Below, one piece after another: positions 36,313 to 58,641 of a stretch of 64,000 nucleotides of DNA (position 1 is the first letter of the stretch; the number at the start of each line of letters is the position of its first letter). The stretch spans positions 496,001 to 560,000 of the forward strand of contig JAIQGG010000001.1 of the NCBI GenBank assembly GCA_020072785.1, read 5' to 3'. The translations under genes and the position numbers were made by a program. This stretch comes from Terriglobia bacterium (GTDB lineage Bacteria; Acidobacteriota; Terriglobia; Acidiferrales; UBA7541). The notes beneath the pieces were generated by a model. That model saw only the letters and a list, made by a program, of their open reading frames with translations, was not told where the DNA came from and ran no database searches.

Positions 36313-36336
36313 GATCCGTCCCCCTAAAAGAATCCC

Positions 36337-36801
36337 TCAACGGCCGGATGCGGCCATGCGAATCGCATCCACCGTCTTGTGATAGCCGGTGCAACGGCAC
36401 AGGTTGCCGGAGATGGCCTGGCGGATCTCCGGATCGCTCGGTGCACGCGCACTCGAGAGAAACTCTTTGGCGGCCATAATCATGCCGCTGGTGCAATAGC
36501 CGCACTGGACGGCCCCCGCCTGAATAAAGGCTTCCTGGAGCGGATCAAGCTTGCCGGCCTTTGCCAGTCCTTCGATGGTGATGATCTTCTTGTCCTGCGC
36601 GGCCATGGCGAACACCATGCAGGAATAGACAGCGCGGCCGTCCAGCAGGACCGTGCAGCAGCCGCAGCCTCCGGAATCGCACCCCTTCTTGGGGCTGAAC
36701 AGACCGAGCTCTTCCCGCAAAACGTCGAGCAGCGTGGAAGAGGCCTCCACTGCGAGTTCGTGACGTTCCCCGTTCACTTCAAGAATCATCGGATGTTTCA
36801 T
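36337..36801 (-). CDS. Molybdenum hydroxylase 2Fe-2S subunit
   Basis: 154 residues. Two [2Fe-2S] clusters: plant-type ferredoxin cysteines at 41, 46, 49 and 61 (KGCDSGGCGCC...SC), and the helical-domain cysteines at 100, 103, 135 and 137 (QCGYC...CRC). It passes electrons from molybdenum to FAD. Complete and normal in length. Confidence 0.95.
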   Translation of the reverse strand: MKHPMILEVNGERHELAVEASSTLLDVLREELGLFSPKKGCDSGGCGCCTVLLDGRAVYSCMVFAMAAQDKKIITIEGLAKAGKLDPLQEAFIQAGAVQCGYCTSGMIMAAKEFLSSARAPSDPEIRQAISGNLCRCTGYHKTVDAIRMAASGR

Positions 36802-36896
36802 GGTTCGCTCCCCGTCTGCACGCCTTGTTCTTTCCGCGCCGGAAAATCATTGCCGCACCACCGGCAAATTTATTGCCCGTCCGCCGCGCACCGGCC

Positions 36897-37784
36897 TCAG
36901 GCGATCGTCAGGCCCAAGCGTTCCGCAGCCCGCAAAAGTGTCCTGCGCAGATAAACCTTGGCCACCGCCCGCCGGTATTGTCCCGAGGCCCGGTGGTCGG
37001 AAACCGGATGAATGTCCGAGGAAACCTTCTGCGCCGCGCTCTCGAACAGGGCCCGCGAGGGGCGCTGCCCGTTCAGCACGGCTTCGCAGGACACCGCGCG
37101 CACCGGCACCTTGCCCACGCCGCCGCCCATCACGACGCGGGCATCCCGGCACAGGCCGGACTGGTCCAGCGTGAGGCGCACTCCGGCATTGAGCAGAGCG
37201 AGATCGTTCGAATTGGTCTCCAGCTTGAGGAAGGCGCTGGCCGAACGCGCAGCAGGCTTGGGCAAGAGCACGTCGGTGAGGATCTCGCCCTTCTCCAGGG
37301 AGTGCTCGAAGTAGTCCACAAAAAACTTTTCCAGGCCGATCTCCCGGGGACCGCGCGGCCCCAGGGACTTCACGGAACCATCGAGAGCCATCAGGGCCAC
37401 CGGCAGGTCGAACAAGGAGTAGGCGCTGGCCACGCACCCGCCGACCGTGGCCAGATTGCGGATTTGCGCCGGCGGATACTGCAGAGCATCCCGGAGCGCG
37501 CCGAACTCCGGCATCTTCTTGACCTGGTCGGTCTCCGCCAATTCCCGGAAAGTGGTCATCGCCCCGAGAGCGATGCCGCCGTTCTCCGCTCGCACATACG
37601 AAAGTCCGGCTTTTTGCAGATCCACAAGAAACTCGACCCCGGAGCCCAGCCCGCGGGCGAAGAGGCCATGCAGGAAGGTTCCGCCCGCCAGGAGCACCGC
37701 ACGGTCGCCATGTCTGGCGAGAAGCTCCACGACATCGCGCGCGCTTTGTGGCCTGCAGAATTCCTTGACTCCCGAGATGCCCAT
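36897..37784 (-). CDS. Molybdenum hydroxylase FAD-binding subunit
   Basis: 295 residues. FAD-binding motifs AGGTFLHG (about 33-40) and IRNLATVGGCVA (about 108-119), with a C-terminal CO-dehydrogenase-type domain. It has no extra 4Fe-4S insert, so it is not of the 4-hydroxybenzoyl-CoA reductase beta type. 95 bp separate it from the 2Fe-2S gene. Confidence 0.92.
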   Translation of the reverse strand: MGISGVKEFCRPQSARDVVELLARHGDRAVLLAGGTFLHGLFARGLGSGVEFLVDLQKAGLSYVRAENGGIALGAMTTFRELAETDQVKKMPEFGALRDALQYPPAQIRNLATVGGCVASAYSLFDLPVALMALDGSVKSLGPRGPREIGLEKFFVDYFEHSLEKGEILTDVLLPKPAARSASAFLKLETNSNDLALLNAGVRLTLDQSGLCRDARVVMGGGVGKVPVRAVSCEAVLNGQRPSRALFESAAQKVSSDIHPVSDHRASGQYRRAVAKVYLRRTLLRAAERLGLTIA

Positions 37785-37897: not shown

Positions 37898-40800
37898 CTA
37901 GAAGCTGAACCGCAGGGCGAACTGGAGTTGGCGCATGTCGCCAACGCTGCGCGGCAGGCCGAAGCCTGGCTGCGCGCCCTGCACGCCATCGCCGTAGTGC
38001 TGCGGTATCGGCCCGATGAAATCCGCATTCGCGTAGATGTTGTCCACATCCAGCACATTGACGCGGTTCAGCAGGTTGAATATCTCGCAGCTGAACGTCA
38101 TCTTCACGGAGTGCTGCGAGACCTCGAAGGGGAAAGCGCGCTGCATCCGGATGTCAAAATCCCGGAACGCGTCGCCCCTGTAGGTATTCCGTCCCAGCAG
38201 TCCGACCCGGTCGGAAAAGGGGAAGCCGTCTCCGTTGGAGTCGAATCCGACCAGGACAGACTGATAGCGAGCGCTCTGCACCGTCGCCGTCAGCGCCAGG
38301 CTCCAATCTTTCACCGCGGCGTTGTGGAAGGGCGAATCGCCCAGCGCGGTAAGGATGAAGCGATGGGGAACGTGGTTGTCCGAAATCCCGTGCTCCAGGT
38401 CTCTCCGCAGGTAATTCTGCGGGCCGGTGGCGAACTGGATCGTGGTCTGGTTGTCGATGGACTTCGACCAGGTGTAATTGGCATTTATGCTGTAGTGGTT
38501 CTTGAAACGCTTATTGAACGTCAGGAATCCGGCGTGATACATGGATTTCGCATCCGGGGAATCCAGAAAGGCAAACCCGAAGTTGGGGTCGGCCAGCGTG
38601 AGCGCCTGCTTGCCATCGGGCAAGGTACCGTTTGGCGCGGCGTTGGCGTTGCCGAAATAATGGATCCGCAGCGCATGCACGTAGGAGTAGCCAATCGACA
38701 TCTGCATGTCCGCTCCGAGGCTGCGTTCCACCTGCAGGCTGGCATTTTCCGAATAGGGATTCGGGAAGTGCTTGGTCGTAAATCCGTGCGAGAACCCGAT
38801 TAACTCGTCCGGCGCAGGATAGGACCCCGTGCTGGTGAAATTCGCGAACGCCGTCGCCGCCGGTATCCCGCCGGGGCCGGGGAACGCCACGCCCACCGGG
38901 CCGAACTCGGCCAGGCCGACGAGGCTCTGCGCGGGATTCACGAAGGGCCCCACCAGCGGATTGTGCAGGTAGCCGGTGATCGGTCCGAACGCCGTGGTCG
39001 TGCCTGTCAGCTCGCTCCAGTTGAAAGGGCCAAAATAGATGCCAAAGCCCCCGCGCACCACGGTTTTGTCGTTGAAGGCATAGGAGAAACCAACGCGCGG
39101 CTGCACGTCGCGCCAATCCTGGTCATACCAGTTGCGATCGTGGAACGGCCGGGTCTCGAAGTCGTAGCGCAGCCCGTAGGTCAGCGTGAGATGCGTGATG
39201 GGTTGCCATTTGTCCTGCAGGTAAAAGCCGGCAATCTGCCGTGTAAAGTTCGCCGAGGACGCCTTATCGAACGCGTCCAGCATCGACTGCGGCAGCAGGC
39301 TGGCCTGCCAATCCGTGCCCCGCGGCAGCAGTTGCTGTCCCCACAGCGACCTCGGCATGCCGAAGTAGAACACCACCGCGGTCGGCTCGGTGAACGGTGG
39401 CAGTCCGAAGTAGCTTTCCGGGGAGAAGACCGACACCGCCGGCGTGAACATCGGCGATTTCGTGGAGTCCCAGATCTCGTGGAATTCCCCGCCGAATTTC
39501 ACCGTGTGCTTGGAATACGTCCGGGTCATGTTCTGGCCAAACTGCAGCCGCGTCTCGCGATAGAAAGTAAAGCTTCCCACCGGGCCGCCGGATTGCACCA
39601 GATTGGGGATGGCCATGAATGGTTCGCGGCCGGCGCCCACCGGATCCAGATGGAAAGTACGGCGAGCGAACTGAAACACAGTATCCCCCGTGAGATTGGG
39701 GGAGAAGGTATGAATCAGGTTTGCCGCCAGCGACTGATCCCGGATCGGATTGTCCCGAAAGGTGCTGGGCAAACCCAGCCCCGGAGGCGCGCCGGGACTG
39801 TTGGGATTGCGTTCGTCGGAGAACAGATAACGCACCGCCAGCAAAGTACTGCCGGTGAACTGATGGTCCAGCTTGCCGATCAGCTTGTCGTAGTCGTTCA
39901 CCATCAGGATGGACCCCAAATTCTCCTGCGACAATCCAAAGAACTGCTTGGTGGCGTTGATCCCCCCGATTGCCGATTGAATGAACGAAGAATAGCGCGG
40001 CGACTGCGCTCGTCGCTGCCCCTCGTAACCGGTGAAGAAGAAGGTCTTGTCCTTGACGATGGGTCCGCCCAGGGTGCCGCCGAACTGATTGAGGCGCAAA
40101 GTGTCCATGCCTGGCACCGAGAGCGGATTGCCGGCATCCAGGGCGTTATTGCGGAAATATTCGTAAACTGTACCGTGCATCACGTTGCTGCCCGAGCGCG
40201 TGACCGTGTTCACGATGCCGCCCAGTGTACGGCCCACTTCGGAATCGTAGCTGCTCGTCACCACGCGGAACTCCTGCACCCATTCCTGCGCCGGGGAACT
40301 CCGCTGCAGGCCGGAAAGACTGGTCGTGTAGTCCACTCCGTCGAGGGAGATGAACACCGAGTGGGATTCCCGCACGCCGGCAAAGCTCAGCTTGGGCGTT
40401 TGCTCGGTGAACGGCGCCTGGCTTCCGACGGAAGTGCTGTTTCCCAGGGTTACCTCGGGGGTCAGCATCACGAAGTCGATGAAGTTGCGGCCCTTGATCG
40501 GCAGGTCCACGATCTGGCGCTCGCTGATCACTTCGCTAACCTGCGACTTCGTCGGCTGGATGCCTTCCTCTTCTGTGGCCGTGACGGTCACCGCGGCGGC
40601 GGCGGCTTCGACCGCCAGTGTTATCGTCAAGGAAGCGCTCTGCCCCACTTGCATATGCAGCGTCTTCGCCGCCGGCTTGAACCCTCGAAACTCGACGTGC
40701 AATTCGTACTCACCCGGCGGAATGTTCGTAATCCGCCCGACCCCGTTCTCATCGCTCTCCGTCTGGCGTTGCAGTCCCGTGCTTGTGCTGGTCAGAATGA

Positions 40801-40969
40801 TCGAGGCTTTCGAGATCGCACCGCCACTCGCATCCTGGACGGACACCGACAGATCCGCGAGAGTTTGGGACTGAACTGCGGGTGCATACAGCGACAAGCA
40901 CAAAAGCAAAAGACAGGCACCCCAGGTCACATAGCCGGGAAATAGCCAACGATTCATATGCGTCTCCAC
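37898..40969 (-). CDS. Oar-like TonB-dependent receptor (island copy 1)
   Basis: 1,023 residues. Signal peptide, then a carboxypeptidase-regulatory-like beta-sandwich (ADLSVSVQDASGGAISKASI, about 38-120), a plug with DLPIKGRNFIDFVMLTPEV, and a long barrel ending in LPRSVGDMRQLQFALRFSF. Outer-membrane uptake or surface protein typical of Acidobacteriota. Highly similar to the receptor at 53365-56526 (same block RESHSVFISLDGVDYTTSLS, GLQRSSPAQEWVQEFRV), so they are paralogues carried by the same island. A strong promoter lies upstream. It precedes the molybdenum hydroxylase genes by 113 bp and may be read through into them. Confidence 0.9.
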   Translation of the reverse strand: METHMNRWLFPGYVTWGACLLLLCLSLYAPAVQSQTLADLSVSVQDASGGAISKASIILTSTSTGLQRQTESDENGVGRITNIPPGEYELHVEFRGFKPAAKTLHMQVGQSASLTITLAVEAAAAAVTVTATEEEGIQPTKSQVSEVISERQIVDLPIKGRNFIDFVMLTPEVTLGNSTSVGSQAPFTEQTPKLSFAGVRESHSVFISLDGVDYTTSLSGLQRSSPAQEWVQEFRVVTSSYDSEVGRTLGGIVNTVTRSGSNVMHGTVYEYFRNNALDAGNPLSVPGMDTLRLNQFGGTLGGPIVKDKTFFFTGYEGQRRAQSPRYSSFIQSAIGGINATKQFFGLSQENLGSILMVNDYDKLIGKLDHQFTGSTLLAVRYLFSDERNPNSPGAPPGLGLPSTFRDNPIRDQSLAANLIHTFSPNLTGDTVFQFARRTFHLDPVGAGREPFMAIPNLVQSGGPVGSFTFYRETRLQFGQNMTRTYSKHTVKFGGEFHEIWDSTKSPMFTPAVSVFSPESYFGLPPFTEPTAVVFYFGMPRSLWGQQLLPRGTDWQASLLPQSMLDAFDKASSANFTRQIAGFYLQDKWQPITHLTLTYGLRYDFETRPFHDRNWYDQDWRDVQPRVGFSYAFNDKTVVRGGFGIYFGPFNWSELTGTTTAFGPITGYLHNPLVGPFVNPAQSLVGLAEFGPVGVAFPGPGGIPAATAFANFTSTGSYPAPDELIGFSHGFTTKHFPNPYSENASLQVERSLGADMQMSIGYSYVHALRIHYFGNANAAPNGTLPDGKQALTLADPNFGFAFLDSPDAKSMYHAGFLTFNKRFKNHYSINANYTWSKSIDNQTTIQFATGPQNYLRRDLEHGISDNHVPHRFILTALGDSPFHNAAVKDWSLALTATVQSARYQSVLVGFDSNGDGFPFSDRVGLLGRNTYRGDAFRDFDIRMQRAFPFEVSQHSVKMTFSCEIFNLLNRVNVLDVDNIYANADFIGPIPQHYGDGVQGAQPGFGLPRSVGDMRQLQFALRFSF

Positions 40970-41070: not shown

Positions 41071-41979
41071 TCAGCCGGCCTTGCCCTGGCTATAAGCGGG
41101 CGCGGTTTGCGGAGCAAACAGCCCGGACTTCAGCATCAGCATCATCATCGAAAAGTCGCCGGCCAGTTCGCAGGCGGCGATCAGCAGGACCAGCCAGGAG
41201 GTCTGCACGCTGTCGTGCAGCAGCGAAAGAAGCAAGGTCGCCACGATTCCCACCAGCACAACGAGTCCCAAGAACAAACCCGCATAGCGTCCCCGGAGCC
41301 ACTGCCGCAGCGTTTCGCGCGCCGCCGGAAGCGACCGGTTCATCCGCAACAAATAAATGCCCAGGAGGAAGAAGTTCGCGACGAGCAGGCCATGTTCGAG
41401 CGTCGGGAGAATCTCCGGAGGAACCTCTCCCCGAATCTCGTGAATGGTCAGGGACATCGTGATGCCTCCAAGGGTGGCGTACATGAACAACAAAAGCGGC
41501 AGAAGCAGCGTCCGCCAAAACGCCACTCCGGCGGAAGATCTCATGAGGAAGCCGTCGTAGCACGCAATGAACAACGCGGAAGCAGCGGCGAGTGCGTAGG
41601 TCAAGTTGGCGGCCCATTCCGGGAAGTGAAGCAAGGGCGAGTGCGCACGGAGCAAAACGCTCAAGAAACCGGTCACCGCAAAGACGCCCGTGGCCCAGAT
41701 TCCGCGGGCAATCCAGGAGCGGTCCGGCCTAGCGGCGGCGCGCAGAAACCGCTCCGGCCGCCCCAGAAAGGCGAGATGCGCGCTGTTCTTGCCGACGACG
41801 ACGATTAGGACACCCGCCAGCATTCCCACAACGTGCCCCGTCAGCAGCGAGACCAGAAATAATCCCCCGCCCACACCGCCGAGGAAAAAGGCGGTTCCGA
41901 TCAGCCAGTTCCAGAACGTCTGGCGGTGGTATCCAAAGGCGAACCGGTGTGGCGCAATCAACAACTCTCGTGTCGTCAT
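41071..41979 (-). CDS. NrfD-family membrane subunit (quinone-linked)
   Basis: 302 residues from ATG 41979 (MTTRELLIAPHRFAFGYHRQ). Eight or so membrane segments, beginning WLIGTAFFLGGVGGGLFLVSL, a NrfD/PsrC-type signature. It would anchor the ferredoxin subunit and exchange electrons with the quinone pool. Last gene of the Rrf2-molybdoenzyme-MoaD-ferredoxin-NrfD operon (34-bp gap). Confidence 0.88.
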   Translation of the reverse strand: MTTRELLIAPHRFAFGYHRQTFWNWLIGTAFFLGGVGGGLFLVSLLTGHVVGMLAGVLIVVVGKNSAHLAFLGRPERFLRAAARPDRSWIARGIWATGVFAVTGFLSVLLRAHSPLLHFPEWAANLTYALAAASALFIACYDGFLMRSSAGVAFWRTLLLPLLLFMYATLGGITMSLTIHEIRGEVPPEILPTLEHGLLVANFFLLGIYLLRMNRSLPAARETLRQWLRGRYAGLFLGLVVLVGIVATLLLSLLHDSVQTSWLVLLIAACELAGDFSMMMLMLKSGLFAPQTAPAYSQGKAG

Positions 41980-42013
41980 ATCGTTTCTCCGCTTCAATCC
42001 CCGGATCGGCACG

Positions 42014-42628
42014 CTATTCGTCGAGGTAGTACACGTTGGGCTTTGTTTCGTACTCCGGCAGCAAGATCCAGCTTTTTCTTTCCCGGACGAGGCGCTGCAA
42101 TTTCCCGTTTTCCTCATCCCAGTCTCCGAAAATGCGGGCATCGGTGGGACAGGTCACCACGCAGGCCGGTTCCAGGCCCTCATCCACGCGGTGCGCGCAA
42201 AGCGTGCATTTGATGTTGGTGCCCTCATCGAAGTCCGCAAACTTGAGAACTTCGAACGGGCTGATGCCGTCGCTGCTGTACCCGTGTTTCAGCAGTCCGC
42301 GCTCCACAAAGTGGCGGTTCATGTACGGGCAGGCCACGTTGCAGGCGCGGCAGCCGATACACTTCTTGTGGTCCACCATGACAATGCCGTCGGGGCGGAT
42401 GTAGGTGGCGCCGGTGGGGCAGGCCTCGGCGCACGGCGCATCCGAGCAATGGTTGCAGAGCACGGGCAGGAAGGTGCGCTTCGTCCGGGGATAGACGCCG
42501 ACCTCCTGGGTGACCACGCGGGCGTAGTGAATGCCCTCAGGCGTCCCGTTTTCTTGTTTGCAAGCCAGCGTGCAGGCATTGCAGCCGATGCAACGCTTCA
42601 GATCAATCACCATGCCCAATCGGGCCAT
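42014..42628 (-). CDS. Ferredoxin-type electron transfer subunit, four 4Fe-4S clusters
   Basis: 204 residues. Sixteen cysteines in the DmsB/PhsB/NrfC pattern: CIGCNACTLAC, CNHC..CAEAC, CIGCRACNVAC, CTLC..CVVTCP. No signal peptide, so it should be cytoplasmic together with the catalytic subunit. It links the molybdoenzyme to the NrfD protein. Confidence 0.93.
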   Translation of the reverse strand: MARLGMVIDLKRCIGCNACTLACKQENGTPEGIHYARVVTQEVGVYPRTKRTFLPVLCNHCSDAPCAEACPTGATYIRPDGIVMVDHKKCIGCRACNVACPYMNRHFVERGLLKHGYSSDGISPFEVLKFADFDEGTNIKCTLCAHRVDEGLEPACVVTCPTDARIFGDWDEENGKLQRLVRERKSWILLPEYETKPNVYYLDE

Positions 42629-42654
42629 TGCAGCACCTCACAGAGTGATACCCG

Positions 42655-42942
42655 TTAACCGCCTGCCAGGCTGCGGATGATCGCCAGGGTCACGATCTCC
42701 TCGCCGCCGTGCAGTTGCTTATCCAGTTGATCGGCTTTCAGGCTCAGTCCATCCACCACGATGGCAAAGTCGGTTCGCAGTTTGCCGTCACACACCAGGC
42801 TGTCGTAAAGGCTGCCGCCGTCCCGCGTTGGCAACTGGCGCAGCAGGTCGGCGATCGTGGTGCCCTCAAACTCCAGCGTTTGCCGGCTGAATCCCAGCAT
42901 CTTGCGGGTCGTTCCCAGCGCGGCGATATTGGCAATCGGCAT
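42655..42942 (-). CDS. MoaD/ThiS-like sulfur carrier protein
   Basis: 95 residues ending in a free Gly-Gly (IIRSLAGG), the thiocarboxylation site of ubiquitin-like sulfur carriers. Beta-grasp pattern: LEFEGTTIADLLRQL, VVDGLSLKADQLDKQLHGGE EIVTLAII. It lies between the catalytic subunit (9-bp gap) and the ferredoxin gene, so it is probably a dedicated sulfur donor for molybdopterin or tungstopterin synthesis of that enzyme. No moaE or moeB partner is nearby. Confidence 0.85.
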   Translation of the reverse strand: MPIANIAALGTTRKMLGFSRQTLEFEGTTIADLLRQLPTRDGGSLYDSLVCDGKLRTDFAIVVDGLSLKADQLDKQLHGGEEIVTLAIIRSLAGG

Positions 42943-42951
42943 AATGGCCCC

Positions 42952-45477
42952 TTACGCTCCCAGGCGTTCCACGCGCACGCGCGCCGTGGATTCCAGCCCG
43001 CCGGTTGCGCTGTCGGTATAGCGCATGGATCCGGTCAGCAAGCGGTTAAAGTGGCTTCCCTTTGCCCGGACCCGTTTATTGTTGACGACCTGCCGGGTGA
43101 TGGTATTGCTGACCCCCAAGACCTGGGGATGGATGCCTTCCACGACTTGCGCTGCCCCTTCGATGCTTCCCGCCGGGGAAGTCAACCGCACCCGGTCACC
43201 CGTCTGGATGCCCAGTTTGTTGGCGGTGGCGGAATTGATCAGGATCCCGCCGTGAATGGAATCTTTGTCGCTGACTTCCGAAAGCCAGGGCATGACCATG
43301 GTGTCCGCGAAGGTATGCAGGCTTTCCTTAAAGGTGATGGCGTAGTACTCGTACCCCGCCTTTCCGTCCTCGATCACCTGCGAGTTCTTCCAGAACGGCA
43401 GCGCCTGGTAATTATCGAGCGGCCAGTCTTTCATGCCCACCTCGGAGAGCTTGACCCGCATCTGATCTCCGGTGCGCTTGATGAACTCGAAATAGAAGGG
43501 GATGCGCAAGCTGCCGAAGGGCAGGTAGGTTTCCTCCGGGGTGCGGTAGCGCACCGCGTGGCCGTGCACCTTGAACCACTCCAGCCCCTTGTCGTCCCCA
43601 TAGATGCTGCGCGCGTAGCGGTCCCAAAACTCGTCCACCGTGTGCCGTTTGTCCGGATCCAGCAGATATTTCGGCTTGGCCGCGAAACCGCAAACCATAT
43701 TCAGGAAATCATTCCAGTCGTCCCGAAAACCCATGCGCTCGGCCAGTTCGGTGAGCATTTCGTAGGCGTCTCGGGTGTCGCCGAGAGGCTCGACCACGGG
43801 CTGCCGGAGCGCGTGGCCCGTGACGGCAGGCGGCTCGAGACAATTGAGCAGCGTGGATTCCAGGAAGGTGCGGTCCGGCAGGAAGACGTCGGCCCACTGC
43901 GTGGATTCCGTCTCTTGAATATCAATCGCCACGACGAACTTCATGCGCTGGAAGATCTCTTCGATTTTGTCGGTTTCCGGCATGTTCCACCACGGATTGG
44001 AGTGGTAGAGCAGCATGACCTCCGGCCGGTAATTCAAGCCGAAGCGCTCCGGATGCAGCAGCGTTTCCGCGTTGAGCTGCCCGGCGTCGAAACCGATGGG
44101 GAACCACTCCATCAAGTGCGTGGAATCCGGCGGGTACTTGAATTCCGGCGCAGGATGCAGTTGGTGCGGTTCGGGCTTGAGCATGCCGTCTTCGCCGGGG
44201 CTCACGAAGAAGCCGCGGTGATCGAGAGGCACGCCCAGATGGCCCCCCGGCACGTCGATGTTTCCCACCAACATGTTGAAGAGCTTGTACGTCACATTGT
44301 CAAAGAGGCCGTTGGCATGGGATTGCGAGCCGCGATAGTAATTGAGCGCGGCGGGCCGATACGGATAGGTCTTGCCCTGGATTTCGACGGTGGCGCCGAT
44401 CTGCGCCGCGTCCACGAACTCCCGGGCAATCCGGCGGATGGTCGCGGCCGGGACGGTGGTGATCTCGGCCATCTTCTCGGGTGTGTTCTCGAACAGGATG
44501 TCCTTCCACATCTGGAAGCCAGTGCGCACGCTCATTCCCTCATGGGAAAAAGTTCCCTCCAGCGCCATGGATTCGCCGGGGACGCCATCCCAGGGACGCG
44601 GGGCGTTGACGCGCAGATCCCAGACCTGGGCTTTGCCCTCGCTATCGCGCAGGAAATAGCCGTCGGCCTTCACCAGGTACGGGGCATTCGTGCGGTCGCG
44701 CAAAAAGTCGCGGTCATAGCGGTGCAGCTCGTGGACCAGCACATGCGCCATGCCCAGGACGAAGGCACGATCCGTGCCAGGAAGCGCCGGAATCCATTCG
44801 TCGGCCTTCGCAGAAGCGACCGAGCAGCGGGGATCGAGCGAAATGACCCGCATCCCGCGCATGCGCGCATCGGCCATGCGCTTGGCGCTTCCGGAAAGAT
44901 GCAGGTGGGAGGAGAATCCGTCGCCGGAGCCGATCTGAATCCAGTAGTTGCAATGTTCGTAATCGTTGATGGCGGCGAAGGAACCGTCCACGCTCCCGTT
45001 CACCGGATGATAGGAGCCGCCGCAGTAGTTCCCCAGGGAGGTAAAGAAGTTGGGCGAGCCAAACACCGCAGGCCAGCCCCAGAAAAGAATTCGCTGGAAA
45101 TCGCCGATGGCACAGAGCAGCTTCCGCGGATCCTCCTTCCGGATCTTGCCGAATTCCCGTGCGACGATCTCATAGGCCTCGTCCCAGCTGATCTGCACCC
45201 AGCCCGGTTTCTCGTGCAGACCTTTCTTGGGGTTCGTGCGCTTCATCGGATAGAGCACGCGGGTGGGATCGTAGAGGCGGGCCAGGCCGGCGTTGCCCTT
45301 GGGACACAGCTTGCCGAGATTGTCGGGATTCGTCGGGTCGCCTTCGATTTTGACCGCCACGCCGTCCACCACCTGCACCTTGATGCCGCAGCCATGCAGG
45401 CACATGCCGCACGTGCTGAAGATCCAGCGGCCCGTGCTCGGGGGAATCGGAGTGCTATGCATCGTCGCCATGGTCAT
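42952..45477 (-). CDS. Molybdopterin oxidoreductase catalytic subunit (DMSO reductase family)
   Basis: 841 residues. N-terminal 4Fe-4S cysteines 23, 26, 30 and 58 (CGMCLHGC...LCPKG), then molybdopterin-guanine domains (ISWDEAYEIVAREFGKI, GSQSHANGLFDN, DVFLPDRTFLES) and the C-terminal dinucleotide-binding barrel (SATANKLGIQTGDRVRLTSPAG). No twin-arginine leader, so cytoplasmic. The composition and the NrfD/ferredoxin partners resemble phenylacetyl-CoA:acceptor oxidoreductase PadBCD or polysulfide/thiosulfate reductase, but neither can be proven. The metal ligand residue could not be assigned. Its ATG overlaps the Rrf2 stop by 4 bp. Confidence 0.88.
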   Translation of the reverse strand: MTMATMHSTPIPPSTGRWIFSTCGMCLHGCGIKVQVVDGVAVKIEGDPTNPDNLGKLCPKGNAGLARLYDPTRVLYPMKRTNPKKGLHEKPGWVQISWDEAYEIVAREFGKIRKEDPRKLLCAIGDFQRILFWGWPAVFGSPNFFTSLGNYCGGSYHPVNGSVDGSFAAINDYEHCNYWIQIGSGDGFSSHLHLSGSAKRMADARMRGMRVISLDPRCSVASAKADEWIPALPGTDRAFVLGMAHVLVHELHRYDRDFLRDRTNAPYLVKADGYFLRDSEGKAQVWDLRVNAPRPWDGVPGESMALEGTFSHEGMSVRTGFQMWKDILFENTPEKMAEITTVPAATIRRIAREFVDAAQIGATVEIQGKTYPYRPAALNYYRGSQSHANGLFDNVTYKLFNMLVGNIDVPGGHLGVPLDHRGFFVSPGEDGMLKPEPHQLHPAPEFKYPPDSTHLMEWFPIGFDAGQLNAETLLHPERFGLNYRPEVMLLYHSNPWWNMPETDKIEEIFQRMKFVVAIDIQETESTQWADVFLPDRTFLESTLLNCLEPPAVTGHALRQPVVEPLGDTRDAYEMLTELAERMGFRDDWNDFLNMVCGFAAKPKYLLDPDKRHTVDEFWDRYARSIYGDDKGLEWFKVHGHAVRYRTPEETYLPFGSLRIPFYFEFIKRTGDQMRVKLSEVGMKDWPLDNYQALPFWKNSQVIEDGKAGYEYYAITFKESLHTFADTMVMPWLSEVSDKDSIHGGILINSATANKLGIQTGDRVRLTSPAGSIEGAAQVVEGIHPQVLGVSNTITRQVVNNKRVRAKGSHFNRLLTGSMRYTDSATGGLESTARVRVERLGA

Positions 45478-45962
45478 TCTCCTCGTTCCGTTCGACGAAA
45501 CGTCTGTGCAGCGCCGGCCGAATTTCCCAAGCTGCCAGCGCTGTCCTCATGCCGGCGCATCCGCACCAGATCGGCTGCGGTCAGCTTTTCGAAGTACTCC
45601 AGCAGATGCCCGCGAACTACGGCCCAGGATTCATGAAGTTCGCAGGGATGGGTGCTGGAGCACGGCCGGTCTTCCAGCAGACATTCCTGGAAGGGTTCGC
45701 CACCCACCGCGCGGACGACGGTGAGCAAGGAAATCTGTCCCGCGGGGACGGCGAGTTCGTACCCCCCGCGGAGGCCTTTGCGCGAGCGCAGCACATGGTT
45801 ATGGCACAAAGAAAGAAGGACTTTGCTCAAAAAGGCGGAAGGGATAGACTCGCCTTGGGCGATCTCCTTCTTCCCGGTAAGTTTCCCGATGGGCTGCGCA
45901 GCCAGGTAGGTAACCGCGCGCAGAGCGTAGCTGCATGGCCGGGAGAGGAGTGAAGTAAGCAT
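45474..45962 (-). CDS. Rrf2-family transcriptional regulator with three-Cys motif
   Basis: 162 residues. Winged helix SYALRAVTYLAAQP...SKVLLSLCHNHVLRSRKGLRGGYEL. Cysteines 94, 101 and 107 (CLLEDRPCSSTHPC, spacing x6 and x5) resemble the iron-sulfur ligands of IscR and NsrR, so an Fe-S redox or NO sensor is likely. It is first in the operon, its stop overlapping the molybdoenzyme start, and is divergent from the PAS-LuxR gene 74 bp away. Confidence 0.88.
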   Translation of the reverse strand: MLTSLLSRPCSYALRAVTYLAAQPIGKLTGKKEIAQGESIPSAFLSKVLLSLCHNHVLRSRKGLRGGYELAVPAGQISLLTVVRAVGGEPFQECLLEDRPCSSTHPCELHESWAVVRGHLLEYFEKLTAADLVRMRRHEDSAGSLGNSAGAAQTFRRTERGE

Positions 45963-46036
45963 AACTAGAGGACCTTTTAATCCATTACGCGGATTCTCTA
46001 CACTTTGTCGGCCCAGTCAATCGGCAGTTTGACTCA

Positions 46037-46720
46037 GTGACCGGGACGAATGTCACGGAGCCGCTCATGTTGGAGAGTGAACTCTTCTCGCTTCTGGAAG
46101 GCACCGCCGATGCGGCGTTCACGGTGGACGAGCAGGGCATGATTCGCTCGTGGAATCGCGCGGCGGAGAAACTCTTCGGCTATCCCTCTTCCACGGTTCT
46201 CCAAAAGCCTTGCGCCAGTCTGGTCCAGGGCTATGGTTCACAAGGAAACATCGTCTGCAAGGAAGACTGCAACGTGCTGCAATGCGCGGCTGCTGGCCGG
46301 GAGACGGAGAACTACGATCTGCAAGTCATCGGCCGGGGCGGACGCCGGCTCTGGGTGAACATTTCCATCATTCTCTTTCGGGATACCCGCTCCGGGCGCC
46401 GCTTGCACATCCACTTGGCCCGCGATATCACATCGCGTAAGAGGAAAGATGAACTAGCGCTGAAAGTCCTGGACGCCGCGAAGGAATTAACCGCGCTGCC
46501 GGAAAATCCTGGTGCGCTGGCCCCGGTTTCCCCTCTGACCGTGCAGGAGAAACGCGTGCTGAGCTTGTTCTCCGAGGGAAAGAGTCCGCAACAGGTGGCT
46601 CGCACGCTGAGAATTACGGACCGCACGCTGCGCAATCACCTGCATCACGCCAACCAGAAGCTGGGGACACGGAACCGTTTGGAAGCCGTGATCCACGCGG
46701 CAAAGCGCGGGTTGATCTAA
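46037..46720 (+). CDS. PAS-LuxR transcriptional regulator with Cys-rich PAS segment
   Basis: 227 residues from GTG 46037 (ATG 46067 possible). PAS domain about 16-135 (AAFTVDEQGMIRSWNRAAEKLFGY). Cysteines 74, 78 and 83 (CKEDCNVLQC) sit in the PAS core and might bind metal or heme or sense redox. The C-terminal LuxR helix-turn-helix (LTVQEKRVLSLFSEGKSPQQ, TLRNHLHHANQKLGTRNRLE) is complete. It is divergent from the Rrf2 operon and likely regulates island genes. Confidence 0.9.
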   Translation: MTGTNVTEPLMLESELFSLLEGTADAAFTVDEQGMIRSWNRAAEKLFGYPSSTVLQKPCASLVQGYGSQGNIVCKEDCNVLQCAAAGRETENYDLQVIGRGGRRLWVNISIILFRDTRSGRRLHIHLARDITSRKRKDELALKVLDAAKELTALPENPGALAPVSPLTVQEKRVLSLFSEGKSPQQVARTLRITDRTLRNHLHHANQKLGTRNRLEAVIHAAKRGLI

Positions 46721-46851: not shown

Positions 46852-46921
46852 CAGCCGTTCCTGCCGGGGCTGTCGCCTTAACCCACACCCTGGAATTGCG
46901 CCGAACTTTTGGGACGCAACA

Positions 46922-47512
46922 CTAGGATCCTACGCGGGGACTCTTCTCACCGAAAGCCAGATGGCGCCAAAGATCACGGTAGTCGTAATCCGTGCGCACA
47001 GCGAGATTGAGGCGGTTGTAGGAGGCGAAATCGCTGACGAGGTGGACGAGTTGCACGATGCCCTTGTCGGTCAGGCCGATGCGGCGGAGGCCGGCGATGT
47101 CCTCTTCGGTGATGTTCGCGGGCGTGGCGTTCACTTTCAGAGCGAAAGTGACGATGCACTTCTGCCGCGGATCGGAGAGCGCGTTTTCCATCTCCATGAC
47201 GAACCTCTTGACCTGATCTTCCCCGGTATTCAGACCGTAGTTCAGGATCGTGCAGAACGCCGCGGTGCAGTAGGGACATCCGTTGGCCTTGGAAACGGCA
47301 ATCCCCACGTACTGGATTTCATCCAGCGTCAGTTCGCCCAGCTGCCAGAGTACCTTGGTGGCTCCCAACTTGGCCTTGAAGAACTCCGGGAAGTTCATCT
47401 CGACATAGAAGTGATTCGGGACCGCCCCTTCCATTTGCGTGACCCAGTCAAAAATCTCGCGGACAACGGGATCATCGACCATTTCGGGCTTTACGATCTT
47501 TACGAAAGCCAT
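46922..47512 (-). CDS. AhpD-like / carboxymuconolactone decarboxylase-family protein
   Basis: 196 residues. All-helical fold with the redox pair in NGCPYCTAAFC. Such proteins act as peroxidase-linked thiol disulfide reductases (AhpD type) or are recruited in aromatic catabolism. It follows the StyA-like gene with a 53-bp gap on the same strand; probable role in handling peroxide or a reactive intermediate from the monooxygenase. Confidence 0.85.
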   Translation of the reverse strand: MAFVKIVKPEMVDDPVVREIFDWVTQMEGAVPNHFYVEMNFPEFFKAKLGATKVLWQLGELTLDEIQYVGIAVSKANGCPYCTAAFCTILNYGLNTGEDQVKRFVMEMENALSDPRQKCIVTFALKVNATPANITEEDIAGLRRIGLTDKGIVQLVHLVSDFASYNRLNLAVRTDYDYRDLWRHLAFGEKSPRVGS

Positions 47513-47565
47513 GGTGTACCTCCCGCGGCGTCCAGGTGATCTTGAAATTGCCTCCGTGGGACGGG

Positions 47566-48795
47566 CTAATTGCCCGCCTGCAGGCGCTTGATCAGCTTTT
47601 CGGCCTCCGCCGCGTCAAACCACCAGGGGTTGTAGGCGGGCGGGTTGTTGAAGCCGTTGGAAATGAGGCTGGCCAGCTTGGGAATCTGCGAAGCCGCACC
47701 CATCAACTGCAGCACCTGGGGCGGCGGAGGGGTTAGCAGCGAGTTCGTCCACTTGGCCACCCACTGCGCATAGCTGTAGAAGGTCTCGAAGGTCTGCTGC
47801 ATCCAGCCGGCATCGAACGGTTTGCCGCCGCGTTCCAGAATGCAGTCCATATAGACTTTTGCGCACTTGCACGCCGTGTTCGCGCCCTGCCCGGTGATCG
47901 GATCGTTGAGCACCACGACGTCGCCCATGCCCAGGATGGTTTTCCCGGAGGGCAGTTTGCAGACCGGCTTGCGGATGGTGGGCGCGAATCTGCCCGCGAC
48001 AATGCCGTTATCGTCGGTAAGTTCGATCTCCTGGCAGCGCTCCGCTTCCCAAGGCAGAAACTTAGCCAGGATCTCCTTGCTGCGTTGGAGATGCTGCTGC
48101 GGCGTCTTTACATCCTGCCAGCAATCCATGGGGCCACCGGGGACTCCCTCGAAGACCATGATCTCGCACGGCCCGTTGACGGTCAGCGCCGGGAAGACGA
48201 AATATTCGCCGACGCCGGGGATGAGGCTGAAGGCCACGGCGGTGAAAGGCTTGCGGGGCACCATCTTCTTGACATAGGTCAGCGCCAGGGCACGCATGGG
48301 CTGATCGAAGGTGGAGCGTGCGGCGTCGCGTGTGAAGAGTTGGTTGATCTCCCCTTTGCCGGCGGCCACAATCACGAGCTCGTGGCTCTTGGCATACTCC
48401 TCGAGGTCCTGAGCGCTGGCTTCCTTGTAGATGACCTGACCGCCGCGCTTGGCAAACTCTTCGAGCCAGCCGGCAAACTTGACGCGTTGGTCGATGGACT
48501 GGCCGAAATGGTCCAGCTTCGCCTCCCAGAACAAGGCGCGGCCGCCGTCCGGCCCGGGAATGGAAAAGCCGATCCCCTCGGTCTTCGGGCACTCCTTTTC
48601 CCAAAAGTTGATGCCCAGATCCCGTTCGATCTGCAGAGAACTGTCAAACATGAACTGGCTGGAGCTGACGCGGCCGGCGCGGAGCTGCTGGGAAGTGCGG
48701 CTGGAGACGACGGTGATGGCATAACCCTTCTGCTGGAGACCCAGAGCCAACTGCAAGCCCGACTGTCCCGCGCCGACGATGGCGATCTTCCTCAT
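47566..48795 (-). CDS. StyA-like flavin-dependent (group E) monooxygenase
   Basis: 409 residues from ATG 48795, preceded by AAGGAG. N-terminal FAD-binding GAGQSGLQLALGLQ, a middle part with GFSIPGPDGGRALFWEA and SFDQPMRALALTYV, the FAD-binding GDVVVLNDPITGQGANTA, and the C-terminal YNPWWFD. These and the length match styrene monooxygenase StyA and indole monooxygenases, two-component enzymes using reduced FAD. The flavin reductase encoded divergently at 49771 is the natural partner. The substrate is probably an aromatic vinyl or indole-type compound, which is inferred. Confidence 0.88.
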   Translation of the reverse strand: MRKIAIVGAGQSGLQLALGLQQKGYAITVVSSRTSQQLRAGRVSSSQFMFDSSLQIERDLGINFWEKECPKTEGIGFSIPGPDGGRALFWEAKLDHFGQSIDQRVKFAGWLEEFAKRGGQVIYKEASAQDLEEYAKSHELVIVAAGKGEINQLFTRDAARSTFDQPMRALALTYVKKMVPRKPFTAVAFSLIPGVGEYFVFPALTVNGPCEIMVFEGVPGGPMDCWQDVKTPQQHLQRSKEILAKFLPWEAERCQEIELTDDNGIVAGRFAPTIRKPVCKLPSGKTILGMGDVVVLNDPITGQGANTACKCAKVYMDCILERGGKPFDAGWMQQTFETFYSYAQWVAKWTNSLLTPPPPQVLQLMGAASQIPKLASLISNGFNNPPAYNPWWFDAAEAEKLIKRLQAGN

Positions 48796-48974
48796 GGAAT
48801 GCTCCTTTTTTCTTAGCGGCCGCTTTCCGCCGATTCCGCGCGCTTCCCCTGCATTTCCTTGTTGCTGCCCAGCGGGCGCACCGCCCGTTCTTTGCAGCGG
48901 GGCCATATGATAGTATCTGCGCCGGAAAAAACAAACTCTGGAATAGGCCGGAGAATTCACAGGGGGAGGCCGTC
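48796..48974. promoter_or_regulatory. Divergent intergenic region styA-like / SDR
   Basis: 179 bp between divergent genes, the likely site of regulated promoters. It contains an imperfect palindrome TCTGG-AATAGG-CCGGA near 48936-48951 and an A-rich stretch just upstream (GGAAAAAACAAACTC). No consensus promoter was confirmed by eye. Confidence 0.35.
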
Positions 48975-49763
48975 ATGGAAGGTCTGAAAGGGAAGGTCGC
49001 CATCGTCACGGGCGGCGGAACGATGATTGGCGCCCACGTGGTCCGGGCCTTTCATCGGGAAGGAACGAAAGTGGTTGTGGCGGATATTGACGCGGCGGGC
49101 GGCCAGGCCATTGCCGGCGAACTCTCTGAAGGTGTGCGCTTCATCCGGACGGATCTGGGCGACGACAAGCAGATCGCCGCTTGTGTCGAGCAGACCGTCG
49201 CGGCGTTCGGCGGTATCGATTTCCTGGTCAACGTGGCCTGCGTCTACGTGGATGGCGGCCTGAGCGCCTCGCGGCAGGATTGGCTGGACAGCTACAACAT
49301 CAACGTCGTCGGCGGGGTGATGATGCTGAAGGCCGTGCGCCCGCACATGGTCCAGCGGGGCGGCGGCGCGGTGGTGAACTTCGGCAGCATCAGCGCGAAG
49401 GTGGCGCAGCATGGCCGCTGGCTCTACCCGGTCAGCAAAGCGGCGACGCTGCAGTTGACGCGCAACGAGGCCATGGATCTGGCCGGGGACAAGATCCGCG
49501 TCAACTCCGTCTCTCCTGGCTGGACCTGGTCGAAGGTCATTGCCGAGCTGAGCAAGAACAATCGCGCGAAGGCCGACAGCGTGGGCGCTCCCTTTCATCT
49601 GCTGGGGCGCATCGGTAACCCGGAAGAGGTAGCGCAGGCCGTTGTTTTCCTCTGTTCCAGCCATGCCTCGTTCATCACCGGGACGGATCTTGCCGTGGAC
49701 GGCGGCTACACCGCCATGGGCCCGGAACGCGCCGAAGAGGCGATTCCCAAGCTGGCGGAATAG
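48975..49763 (+). CDS. SDR-family oxidoreductase in the island
   Basis: 262 residues. TGGGTMIGAHVVRAF binds NAD(P); catalytic Ser in NFGSISAK and Tyr-x-x-x-Lys in LYPVSKAA. GLTAC-type end replaced by VDGGYTAMGPE. In the setting of a StyA-like monooxygenase and flavin reductase, it could oxidise a dihydrodiol or alcohol intermediate. It precedes the flavin reductase by 7 bp. Confidence 0.9.
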   Translation: MEGLKGKVAIVTGGGTMIGAHVVRAFHREGTKVVVADIDAAGGQAIAGELSEGVRFIRTDLGDDKQIAACVEQTVAAFGGIDFLVNVACVYVDGGLSASRQDWLDSYNINVVGGVMMLKAVRPHMVQRGGGAVVNFGSISAKVAQHGRWLYPVSKAATLQLTRNEAMDLAGDKIRVNSVSPGWTWSKVIAELSKNNRAKADSVGAPFHLLGRIGNPEEVAQAVVFLCSSHASFITGTDLAVDGGYTAMGPERAEEAIPKLAE

Positions 49764-49770
49764 AGAAGAT

Positions 49771-50283
49771 ATGAAGAGCACTTCAGCCGAGGACTTTGAC
49801 CCGAAGGATTACCGCCGCACGCTCGGGCAGTTCGCCACGGGCGTCACCGTGGTCACCACCCGGGGCCAGGACGGCCGCTTCATCGGCCTGACCGTCAATT
49901 CCTTTACTTCCGTTTCGCTCCAGCCGCCGCTGGTCCTCTGGTGTCTCGTCCGGCAATCGCCGAGCCTGGCAGCCTTTCAAGGGGCCAGCCACTTCGCGAT
50001 CAATATTCTGGCGGCCGGGCAGCACGGCTTGTCCCGGCAGTTTGCTTCGCAGGTTCCCGACCGGTTTGCAGGGGTTGAGCTGGAGGAGGGGAAGGCCGGT
50101 GTGCCGCGCTTGAAGGGCGTCGCGGCCCAGTTGGTTTGCCGGAACGCGGGGCAATTCGACGGCGGCGATCACATCATTTTTCTGGGGCAGGTGGAGGAAT
50201 ACCTCCGGTCCGAGGAAAAACCTCTGCTGTTCCACTCCGGGCGCTATCGCAGCGTGACGCCGCATCCCGATTTCCCGGAATGA
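49771..50283 (+). CDS. Flavin reductase family protein (StyB/HpaC-like)
   Basis: 170 residues. Split-barrel flavin-binding fold with YRRTLGQFATGVTVVTT, GLTVNSFTSVSLQPPLVLWC and HFAINILAAGQ. It supplies reduced flavin for the monooxygenase encoded divergently. It follows the SDR with a 7-bp gap, in one operon. Confidence 0.9.
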   Translation: MKSTSAEDFDPKDYRRTLGQFATGVTVVTTRGQDGRFIGLTVNSFTSVSLQPPLVLWCLVRQSPSLAAFQGASHFAINILAAGQHGLSRQFASQVPDRFAGVELEEGKAGVPRLKGVAAQLVCRNAGQFDGGDHIIFLGQVEEYLRSEEKPLLFHSGRYRSVTPHPDFPE

Positions 50284-50395
50284 GGCGCGCCATTCCGCTG
50301 TCCGGGAAGCGGCCAGCCGCCACGGCTGCCGCTTTCTGGCCCCCGCAAGAATTCAGCAATGCTCGAACGCGGCTACGATCTCCGGGCCCGCCCGC

Positions 50396-51496
50396 TCAGT
50401 CGGCCGGAACCTCTTCGGTTTTCGGCTGGGCTTTTGTCTTGGTTGGGCGCCGGTAGATTCCCCTCTCCACCATCTCTGCCAGCACGCGGTGCCGTATGGC
50501 GTCGTGATCCGCATGCCCGCCGGGATGCTTCTTCAGGCCGAGGTTTTTCGGGTACAAGGGTTTTTCGTAGATGCAGCGGAACTGTTCGGTGCGCAGATCG
50601 CGGAGCCAGTTCCCCCACAGCGAGCGCGTGCGGTATTGCCGCAGCGCCTCGATATCGATGATCGCTCCGGCGTAGGAAGGCCCCGCGCCGTACTCGTGCT
50701 GCGAAAGCACCCGGCCCTGATAGTCCACGATCATGGATTTGCCGCCGAAAGTATCCAGTGCGTCTTTCGAATCCTGCATGAGGTAGTAGTTGGCGGGGTT
50801 CGGCGCCACCACGTAGCAGGTATTGTCCAGGGCGCGGGCGCGGTTCTGCACCTCCCAGAGGCCGTTGGCGACATAGGGTTCGGGATACGCGGGCCGGTAA
50901 AGGACTTCGGCGCCGTTCATGGCCATGCCGCGGGCCGTTTCCGGGAAGGATCCGTCCATGCAGATCACGCAGCCGATCCGCCCGATCTCCGTATCGGCCA
51001 CGGGAAAGAAGGAATCGAGGCCGTCGCCGTAGAGTTCGACCCACTTGTCCCACACGTCGTGGGGCACGGTCGAGTGCTCGCGGGCGAAGACCTGGAGCTT
51101 GTGGTATTTATAAATCACCTCGCCGGTCGGCGCGATGATGAAAGCGCCGTTGAAGAACTTCCTGGGAAACTCGGGATGCTTGATCTTGGCCTGGGCGATG
51201 ATGAAAGCGTTGTGCTGCTTGGCTTTGCGCCCCAGCATCTCCGTCTCTGGGCCGGGGATGTCCAGGGCCATCTCCTCCACGTATTTTTCGTGATCCCAGT
51301 CGAAGACCTCGTCGGTGAAACCCTGCAGGCAGCCTTCCGGAATACAGATCAGGCGCACGGGCAGGTCAATGGAACTGAGCCAGATGGAAGCGTCGATCAG
51401 GTCCGAAATATGCCGGATGTTGACCTCGACTTCCGAGCGCTTGGTGCAGCCACGCATGGTGGGCTGGAGCGCAAGAGCCATATATTGCTCGATCAT
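50396..51496 (-). CDS. Nitrilase-superfamily amidohydrolase (active triad)
   Basis: 366 residues from ATG 51496, with a strong AAGGAGG site. Carbon-nitrogen hydrolase fold with Glu54 (CIPEGCLQG), Lys133 (YHKLQ) and Cys179 (VICMDGSFPE), the full triad. Hydrolyses a nitrile, amide or carbamoyl bond; substrate not assigned. It is a close paralogue of 56616-57683 in the same island, where the Cys is lost. The C-terminal end is extended and positively charged (RRPTKTKAQPKTEEVPAD). Confidence 0.88.
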   Translation of the reverse strand: MIEQYMALALQPTMRGCTKRSEVEVNIRHISDLIDASIWLSSIDLPVRLICIPEGCLQGFTDEVFDWDHEKYVEEMALDIPGPETEMLGRKAKQHNAFIIAQAKIKHPEFPRKFFNGAFIIAPTGEVIYKYHKLQVFAREHSTVPHDVWDKWVELYGDGLDSFFPVADTEIGRIGCVICMDGSFPETARGMAMNGAEVLYRPAYPEPYVANGLWEVQNRARALDNTCYVVAPNPANYYLMQDSKDALDTFGGKSMIVDYQGRVLSQHEYGAGPSYAGAIIDIEALRQYRTRSLWGNWLRDLRTEQFRCIYEKPLYPKNLGLKKHPGGHADHDAIRHRVLAEMVERGIYRRPTKTKAQPKTEEVPAD

Positions 51497-51626
51497 GACA
51501 ATCCTCCTTGGCGGGTCTACAGCATGTGCTGAAACCGGGACGTCGGTGAGTGCGCCTTCCGAGGCGCGCCGGGATGCGCCGGATGAAGAGTATTCAACAC
51601 CCGAACGCATGCCCCGTCAAGAAGTT

Positions 51627-51641
51627 GACCGCTTGGCGGTC
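51627..51641. repeat. REP-like palindrome GACCGC-TTG-GCGGTC
   Basis: Single palindrome in the gap between the nitrilase and aldehyde dehydrogenase genes. It shows that the repeat family also occurs inside the putative island. Confidence 0.8.
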
Positions 51642-51723
51642 ACAGTAATAATGACGGGCCGCCTGAGGCACACTGCGCGGGCCCTGGGACGCTCCGTTCC
51701 GGAGGTTGTCCACGCCAGAACCT

Positions 51724-53205: not shown

Positions 53206-53314
53206 GGCCGTCCTCCGGACTTTCGAAAGGTATCGCGAAACTATACAGAATCCGCTTTGAACTTCCAGTAGTTTTCCGCCCCCCGCCGCGCAGGTCCGGG
53301 AGGAAAGACTATTG

Positions 53315-53343
53315 TTGACGCAACACGTGCCGAGTGCTAGTCT
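53315..53343 (+). promoter_or_regulatory. Possible promoter of the second Oar-like receptor
   Basis: TTGACG (53315-53320), 17-bp spacer, TAGTCT (53338-53343). The -35 is good and the -10 matches at 3 of 6. It is in the divergent gap between aldehyde dehydrogenase and receptor. Confidence 0.4.
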
Positions 53344-53364
53344 CCGTCAAATTTCAACTTCCGG

Positions 53365-56526: not shown

Positions 56527-56615
56527 CGGCTTCCGGAACACTGCAGCAGAACCCGCGCAAGGCCGGCGCATCCGTTTCCGCTGCGCCGGCCGCGCGCGAA
56601 TCAGCAGGAAAATCC

Positions 56616-57683: not shown

Positions 57684-57713
57684 GCCTGTTTTCTTGCCGC
57701 CAGCCATTGGAGG

Positions 57714-58400: not shown

Positions 58401-58480
58401 GCCCTGCAGGGGCCCTGGGAGCGTCCGCCCGGCCGCATGCGCGAGATGTGAAAAACTGTTGGCTGATCTCGTAGCCCGGG

Positions 58481-58502
58481 CGAGCCCCCTCACGTCTACC
58501 AA
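58481..58502. repeat. Putative att site, right copy (tRNA-Ala 3'-end fragment)
   Basis: CGAGCCCCCTCACGTCTACC plus AA; 21 of 22 identical, in the same orientation, to 33828-33849. The single difference (C to T) lies in the acceptor-stem part. No other part of a tRNA is here, so it is a duplicated end, not a tRNA gene. It lies 80 bp past the last island gene. Confidence 0.8.
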
Positions 58503-58641
58503 TTTTCCCCGCGCAACGGACCGTCCTCCGATTCCGGCCGCAGCGGGCCGGCGGCGCCCCGGCGCACCCGAAAGCGGCGGAAAATTGATAGAATGGATGT
58601 GGCTGTAGTCCCCCGCGTTAGAACCAGAAGGAGTTCCGTTC

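Follow-up and report, generated by a model that had tools for sequence, protein, structure and literature searches.

A PadB-related molybdoenzyme operon with its own MoaD-like gene in a Terriglobia genome and its possible part in indole catabolism

Which compound is oxidized by the product of a five-gene operon encoding a predicted molybdoenzyme in the genome of a Terriglobia bacterium, and why should such an operon carry a sulfur-carrier gene of its own? The operon lies in a 64,000-nt stretch of assembly GCA_020072785.1 (contig JAIQGG010000001.1, positions 496,001 to 560,000), the whole of which is called the window below. It encodes an Rrf2-family regulator, a catalytic subunit of the dimethyl sulfoxide (DMSO) reductase family, a MoaD-like protein, an iron-sulfur (Fe-S) subunit and an NrfD-type membrane subunit. 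We propose, with a probability of roughly 0.5, that these genes specify a quinone-linked DMSO-reductase-family oxidoreductase for indole catabolism, and we infer its substrate, reactions, metal and regulation from genes, folds, gene order and gene company. That the window enzyme itself makes isatin from oxindole has about an even chance of being right, and the members in the family Rhodocyclaceae quite probably belong to a pathway that forms isatin. Indole is widespread both as a pollutant and as a signalling molecule, and intermediates of its anaerobic degradation (oxindole, isatin and anthranilate) have been recognized since the 1980s. A 2018 review calls the mechanism of anaerobic indole degradation a black box (PMC6221969), and no gene for the anaerobic oxidation of oxindole to isatin is named among the matches listed in the Creative Commons-licensed PubMed Central literature, although subscription papers could hold one.

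The operon and its catalytic complex

The five genes run on the minus strand from position 45962 down to 41071 with a 4-bp overlap followed by gaps of 9, 26 and 34 bp, and this reproduces the packing given in a preliminary description of the locus. The catalytic, Fe-S and NrfD genes recur as a group in bacteria and archaea among the collected homologous loci, and a search for the conserved order, which the same description had proposed, found catalytic-MoaD-FeS-NrfD in Acidobacteriota and Chloroflexota as well. This recurrence in distant taxa indicates that the operon order is not due to chance. Genes were called by a simple open reading frame (ORF) script; frames were miscalled in GC-rich loci, hence the neighbourhood counts given below were made by tblastn.

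The Pfam cut-offs are passed by the Rrf2, Fer4 and NrfD proteins of the operon and by the three molybdopterin domains of the catalytic subunit (42952-45477, minus strand; 841 aa), namely PF04879 (Fe4S4), PF00384 (molybdopterin) and PF01568 (dinucleotide-binding), which place it in the DMSO reductase (molybdenum/tungsten-bis-pyranopterin guanine dinucleotide, Mo/W-bisPGD) family. The protein fits no NCBIfam equivalog, the best being PhsA with 272 of 694 bits. Its predicted model, based on a 15-sequence alignment, has a mean confidence score (pLDDT) of 80.6 and lies nearest in fold to ArrA (6cz7) and PsrA (2vpw). Both alignments of the catalytic subunit keep the four cysteines of the 4Fe-4S site (C23, C26, C30 and C58) and C152 invariant; the latter is presumably the Mo ligand, by analogy with PsrA and ArrA. 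The electron-transfer subunit (42014-42628, minus strand) matches Pfam Fer4 and has 16 Cys, from which four [4Fe-4S] sites are expected. The NrfD-type subunit (41071-41979, minus strand; start ATG at 41979; PF03916, 35.7 bits) has about eight hydrophobic stretches and would form the quinone side. No twin-arginine translocation (Tat) motif was found in the close-clade catalytic proteins (16 examined, the window's included, with a doubtful start in L044 and a truncation in L048; L numbers denote loci and G numbers genomes). Together with the NrfD subunit this suggests a cytoplasmic oxidation feeding quinone, with the direction of electron flow read from the gene set.

Relatives, gene company and candidate substrate

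A scan of the collection found at least 80 named loci with a catalytic homologue, and the nearest named relatives among the matches listed are metagenome-assembled genomes (MAGs) of Terriglobia (Acidobacteriota). In a phylum sample the enzyme (E<=1e-60) occurs in 11/199 genomes, and its close form only in the window's own genome (G000; 3.73 Mb, 11 contigs, 98.9% complete) and in G148 (76% identity). In a quick tree of 48 rows (44 of the 91 collected catalytic sequences plus four others), the 16 loci at >=42% identity form one clade (SH-aLRT branch support 100), sister to two PadB-type rows (98). PadB groups with L119b apart from the window clade (100), and since the PadB branch is long, the sister position is provisional. 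The enzyme is 31% identical to PadB of the canonical padBCD-EFGHI row of Aromatoleum toluclasticum (L135) and 47% identical to a second homologue in the same organism (its neighbourhood is L051); both loci contain a PadI protein over the NCBIfam cut-off. Orthology to PadB is ruled out by the separate clade, the 31% identity and the separate canonical pad locus in A. toluclasticum. Thus the cytoplasmic, quinone-directed and PadBCD-like plan put forward in the preliminary description draws support from the NrfD assignment and from the tree placement that it had called for; membership in PadB itself was not borne out. Two side observations concern molybdopterin-family genes: on one Chloroflexota contig (L119), homologues of the window enzyme and of canonical PadB stand near each other, and the match of a molybdopterin-family gene at G000:C1:37636-38907 (L001, L038) crosses one in-frame TGA, so that it could be a selenocysteine formate dehydrogenase.

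The isatin hypothesis was drawn from a recurring pattern of a xanthine-dehydrogenase-type (XDH) enzyme, the PadB-like enzyme, a cyclic-amide hydrolase and a 2-oxoacid oxidoreductase (KOR), and was recorded before testing. Beside the A. toluclasticum homologue lies a PF04199 protein that scores 290-314 bits to four PDB isatin hydrolase sequences (next best, 124) and is, on this similarity, an isatin hydrolase. The enzyme was found in 10/150 Rhodocyclaceae genomes searched, and five of the ten carriers (G199, G255, G220, G348 and G228) have the row catalytic-FeS-NrfD-FdhD-isatin hydrolase-KOR, in which the KOR is phenylglyoxylate-dehydrogenase-like. Counts over 90 homologous loci point the same way: within 10 kb a KOR lies at 6/15 close loci vs 1/75 others, an XDH large subunit at 6/15 vs 4/75 and a hydantoinase at 4/15 vs 3/75, counts to be read with the longer flanks of the close loci (median 17.5 vs 12.3 kb). 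In L045, from a Desulfosporosinus MAG, XDH, KOR, hydantoinase and the catalytic-FeS-NrfD genes all stand in one row. The slot held by the isatin hydrolase in L051 is occupied in its close kin L079 by a hydantoinase, an unrelated amide hydrolase keeping the same company; the KOR alpha subunits of the two loci are 70% identical. As a separate observation, the isatin hydrolase at 13869 of L200 (G228) is only 55% identical to that of A. toluclasticum, compared with 83-93% in three other genomes, as if it had been replaced in place. The acidobacterial PF04199 proteins were rejected as isatin hydrolases: they are 31-39% identical to the A. toluclasticum protein, and several have an apparent signal peptide.

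The main rival explanation is that the operon encodes a divergent PadBCD-like enzyme oxidizing phenylacetyl-CoA or another arylacetyl-CoA, with the indole genes of the window as accidental neighbours. The sister position to PadB and the shared subunit plan speak for it, as do IorAB-like and PaaX-type-regulator-like genes elsewhere in G000 (named from reading the sequences) and a weak CoA-ligase match on the A. toluclasticum contig (L154; 27%, 111 bits). But the sister position depends on the long PadB branch, and the CoA-ligase query, the one query used, found nothing in the 15 close-clade loci. A phenylglyoxylate dehydrogenase of the PadE-I type adjoining the enzyme is not found in the window, a related KOR standing at the six close loci counted above. 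Moreover, A. toluclasticum already has a separate canonical PadBCD-EFGHI, so its second enzyme needs another job, and in five genomes the enzyme sits with an isatin hydrolase. We consider the arylacetyl-CoA explanation unlikely. In our preferred reading, a role in indole catabolism, the neighbours, i.e., the XDH trimer and indole-monooxygenase module of the window together with the isatin hydrolase and KOR of the relatives, indicate the likely substrate class.

The route would consist of four steps. The XDH-type trimer (33973-37784) would use water to hydroxylate C2 of indole and so yield oxindole, which is the lactam of 2-aminophenylacetate. The operon enzyme would then oxidize the oxindole CH2 to the keto group of isatin, as PadB does on phenylacetyl-CoA, and pass four electrons via the 4x[4Fe-4S] subunit and NrfD to quinone. 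In the relatives, isatin hydrolase, or the hydantoinase in the same slot, would open isatin to 2-aminophenylglyoxylate (isatinate), from which the phenylglyoxylate-dehydrogenase-like enzyme would form 2-aminobenzoyl-CoA.

The proposed first enzyme belongs to the same gene row as the operon: nine consecutive minus-strand genes run from 45962 to 33973, including a large outer-membrane-receptor-like ORF (37898-40969, minus strand; named from reading the sequence, and 93% identical at the same position in L040) and the XDH trimer. The latter comprises a FAD subunit (36897-37784; 295 aa; PDB matches), a 2Fe-2S subunit (36337-36801; Cys pattern and position) and a molybdenum subunit as proposed indole C2 hydroxylase (33973-36312; family and PDB matches), all on the minus strand. 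XDH-type genes also share a gene row with the homologous operon in L024. A 4-hydroxybenzoyl-CoA reductase was considered for the trimer and rejected, as HcrB is not among the 13 PDB matches (E<=1e-10) of the FAD subunit. The HcrB-type beta subunit bears an extra [4Fe-4S] insertion.

On the other side of the operon lies an indole-monooxygenase module. Its flavoprotein (47566-48795, minus strand) is a group E indole monooxygenase with 598 bits to 7z4x, which we take to be VpIndA1; a styrene monooxygenase was rejected on the 138 bits to 3ihm. An AhpD-like protein travels with it (46922-47512, minus strand; library match), the same pair being present in G206 (locus L178). On the plus strand follow a short-chain dehydrogenase (SDR; 48975-49763) and a flavin reductase (49771-50283, start inferred; PF01613 138 bits on 49702-50283). 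In a comparison with iif-type clusters on three plasmids, taken from 21 matching records, the monooxygenase is 56-62%, the SDR 59-62% and the flavin reductase 28-52% identical to the counterparts beside indole monooxygenases. One of these plasmids, from Azospirillum, carries in its iif-type row an isatin hydrolase 60% identical to that of L051. At E<=1e-90 the monooxygenase is found in 2/199 genomes of the phylum sample, G000 and G148, the same two that carry the close enzyme, and three of four further acidobacterial carriers have it (G206, G207 and G208). Thus it is present in 5/6 acidobacterial close-clade genomes vs 0/197 other sampled genomes, in 4/5 vs 0/197 when G000 is left out, and in 1/1 vs 0/197 (p 0.005) for the sampled set alone; the Fisher tests count genomes as independent, and the six close-clade members are one lineage. 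In both the window and L041 the monooxygenase adjoins the operon. L040, where the enzyme is 94% identical, lacks the counterpart of about 46.9-60.1 kb of the window, and the monooxygenase part lies on another contig there (L178). The window block 46900-60100, with indole-monooxygenase, nitrilase-type and aldehyde-dehydrogenase-like genes, is therefore a separable module. Two CN-hydrolase (nitrilase/amidase) genes at 50396-51496 and 56616-57683, 48% identical to each other, lie near the indole genes, and one is also found in L041; they are candidates for lactam-ring opening in Terriglobia.

Several observations weigh against a role in indole catabolism. The weakest point is that steps 3 and 4, isatin opening and isatinate oxidation, were not located in G000: a PF04199 protein was not found there, the best hydantoinase-like match is weak (93 bits, with an internal stop), and its KOR genes do not closely resemble the PadE-I type and were rejected as the isatinate enzyme for their weak similarity. 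In the relatives, the enzymes of G340 and G294 (79-80% identical to that of A. toluclasticum, in tandem with a 62-63% paralogue) have no isatin hydrolase in the 20 kb read, nor have the loci with a 61-64% paralogue alone (the second G228 locus, G327, G317 and G325). For the first step, the XDH large subunit is closest among solved structures to 4-hydroxybenzoyl-CoA reductase (HcrA), and the XDH proteins beside L043, L044 and L051 are only 32-38% identical to the window's. The monooxygenase was not found in G209 or in nine non-acidobacterial carriers, and in G148 and G206 its genes and the operon are on different contigs. In the operon-side isatin hydrolase of L051, Ala replaces one partly coordinating Gln (residues as given in PMC6117287), while a second copy on the contig keeps the Gln. 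On the supporting side, for the later part of the route, G000 has a benzoyl-CoA-reductase-type pair (PF06050) whose row also contains BadF-like, CaiB-like and amidohydrolase-like genes; the pair is 38% identical to one that lies near the homologous operon in L024, only a few genes away. G000 also has NarGH-like genes (named from sequence). This makes a path for the aminobenzoyl unit and an electron acceptor plausible.

In a second rival reading the substrate would be a different N-heterocycle or lactam, or else an indoleacetate-derived oxindole, with the ring opened by hydantoinase; the Terriglobia branch may have changed its substrate. The four close loci with hydantoinase instead of isatin hydrolase would fit it, as would the mere 47% identity between the window and A. 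toluclasticum enzymes and the nitrilase-type genes near the operon; isatin, according to PMC6117287, was originally recognized as an intermediate in the breakdown of indoleacetate. The close kinship of L079 and L051 favours one substrate for both ring openers, and the indole-monooxygenase link is found in Terriglobia itself. We regard this alternative, too, as improbable and retain oxindole as the candidate substrate. It is a more tentative proposal, at somewhat less than even odds, that the whole group forms a class of quinone-linked oxindole dehydrogenases (oxindole to isatin) of anaerobic indole degradation, often matured with their own sulfur carrier and spread over Acidobacteriota, Rhodocyclaceae, Desulfosporosinus, Chloroflexota and archaea. 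Indole could then be converted to 2-aminobenzoyl-CoA entirely without O2 by XDH, this enzyme, a ring opener (isatin hydrolase or hydantoinase) and an arylglyoxylate oxidoreductase, and to this route Terriglobia would add the O2-dependent monooxygenase, so that indole might be used with or without O2. If this is true, candidate genes can be named for all four steps and tested in the cultured genus Aromatoleum.

The MoaD-like protein and the regulator

The MoaD-like protein (42655-42942, minus strand; 95 aa) ends in LAGG and is named by no family library (PF02597, ThiS, 18.9 bits vs the cut-off of 22.5, E 0.0062). The best Foldseek matches of its model (pLDDT 82.3) are SAMP1, CysO and MoaD, with TM scores of about 0.6-0.7 by query length, and on this predicted structure it carries the beta-grasp MoaD/SAMP/CysO fold. 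A profile made from close relatives and iterated over the 90 homologous loci placed such an ORF no more than 4 kb from the catalytic gene in 42 of them, and in 31 of these the ORF ends exactly in Gly-Gly; the count of 42 may be a lower bound, since several contigs end near the catalytic gene. A MoaD partner had been thought uncommon for a complex of this family, a view that these counts overturn: enzymes of this group commonly have such a gene nearby, and its presence does not single out the window operon. None of the observations points to tungsten, which the preliminary description had associated with such a carrier, although no test aimed at the metal was made. The Gly-Gly column pair is invariant in 21 aligned proteins, with four residues after the pair in the L047 copy (12529-12822). 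Homologous JAMM-type peptidase ORFs (named from reading the sequence) lie near the PadB-like enzyme in other Acidobacteriota (L027 12784, L029 4544, L030 100), and together with the L047 tail they hint at possible processing of the sulfur carrier.

The MoaD-like protein would supply pterin sulfur for the operon enzyme, perhaps when the housekeeping MoaD does not. It could instead be a general sulfur carrier located here by chance, with the enzyme drawing on the common molybdenum cofactor pool, and the eight of 16 close-clade loci with no MoaD-like ORF within 4 kb indicate that the enzyme class can manage without one. This is rather doubtful given the 42 loci, the conserved Gly-Gly and the other carriers of G000, where four further ThiS/MoaD-type genes (named from reading the sequences) were found: one overlapping a moaE-like gene, one ThiS-like and two CysO-like, of which one adjoins JAMM-like and MoeB-like genes. 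These genes exclude the operon protein as sole carrier of the genome, and the suggestion in the preliminary description that the operon has a MoaD of its own stands. It is common for PadB-like DMSO-reductase-family enzymes to be accompanied by a MoaD of their own, and this raises the question of why a private sulfur carrier is needed.

The Rrf2-family regulator (45474-45962, minus strand; PF02082, 94.9 bits; no NCBIfam equivalog over cut-off) has five Cys. Three of them, already remarked on in the earlier description, resemble the cluster of Fe-S Rrf2 proteins in an IscR-like arrangement, C94-x6-C101-x5-C107-x2-H110, with H110 as putative fourth ligand. The protein would switch the operon by redox state, O2 or nitric oxide. 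An imperfect inverted repeat lies upstream in the window and is not kept in L040, and no operator is claimed. A PAS-LuxR regulator gene (46037-46720, plus strand; library match) diverges from the Rrf2 gene across a 74-bp intergenic region (45963-46036).

Comparison with known systems

ArrA and PsrA have the fold and the Fe-S site in common with the window catalytic subunit, at 22% identity over the fold alignment, but they are periplasmic Tat enzymes. The anaerobic indoleacetate degradation cluster attributed to Ebenau-Jehle (2012) reportedly combines XDH-type C2 hydroxylation of indole with a subsequent hydantoinase-like enzyme, two features in common with the proposed route. It is reported to proceed, unlike the route proposed here, through CoA thioesters and a mutase, and it is not known to include a PadB-like enzyme. 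The aorABCDE operon of Aromatoleum aromaticum, for a tungsten aldehyde oxidoreductase (AOR), has MoaD-like genes inside the enzyme operon as in the window, according to PMC6365974; it differs in enzyme family (AOR), in having two MoaD-like genes and in the use of tungsten. The monooxygenase, SDR and flavin reductase of the window match the aerobic iif/ind indole cluster described in PMC6221969, but that cluster is O2-dependent and no counterpart of its IifA was identified in the window. PadBCD of Thauera and Aromatoleum, a sister clade in the tree, has the same set of catalytic, 4x[4Fe-4S] and NrfD-like subunits. The chemistry would likewise take place at a CH2 between aryl and carbonyl groups, and a PadE-I-like enzyme adjoins relatives of the window enzyme. 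In contrast to PadBCD, no CoA ligase was found within the close loci with the single query used, the window set has its own MoaD and Rrf2 proteins, and its relatives have isatin hydrolase or hydantoinase alongside.

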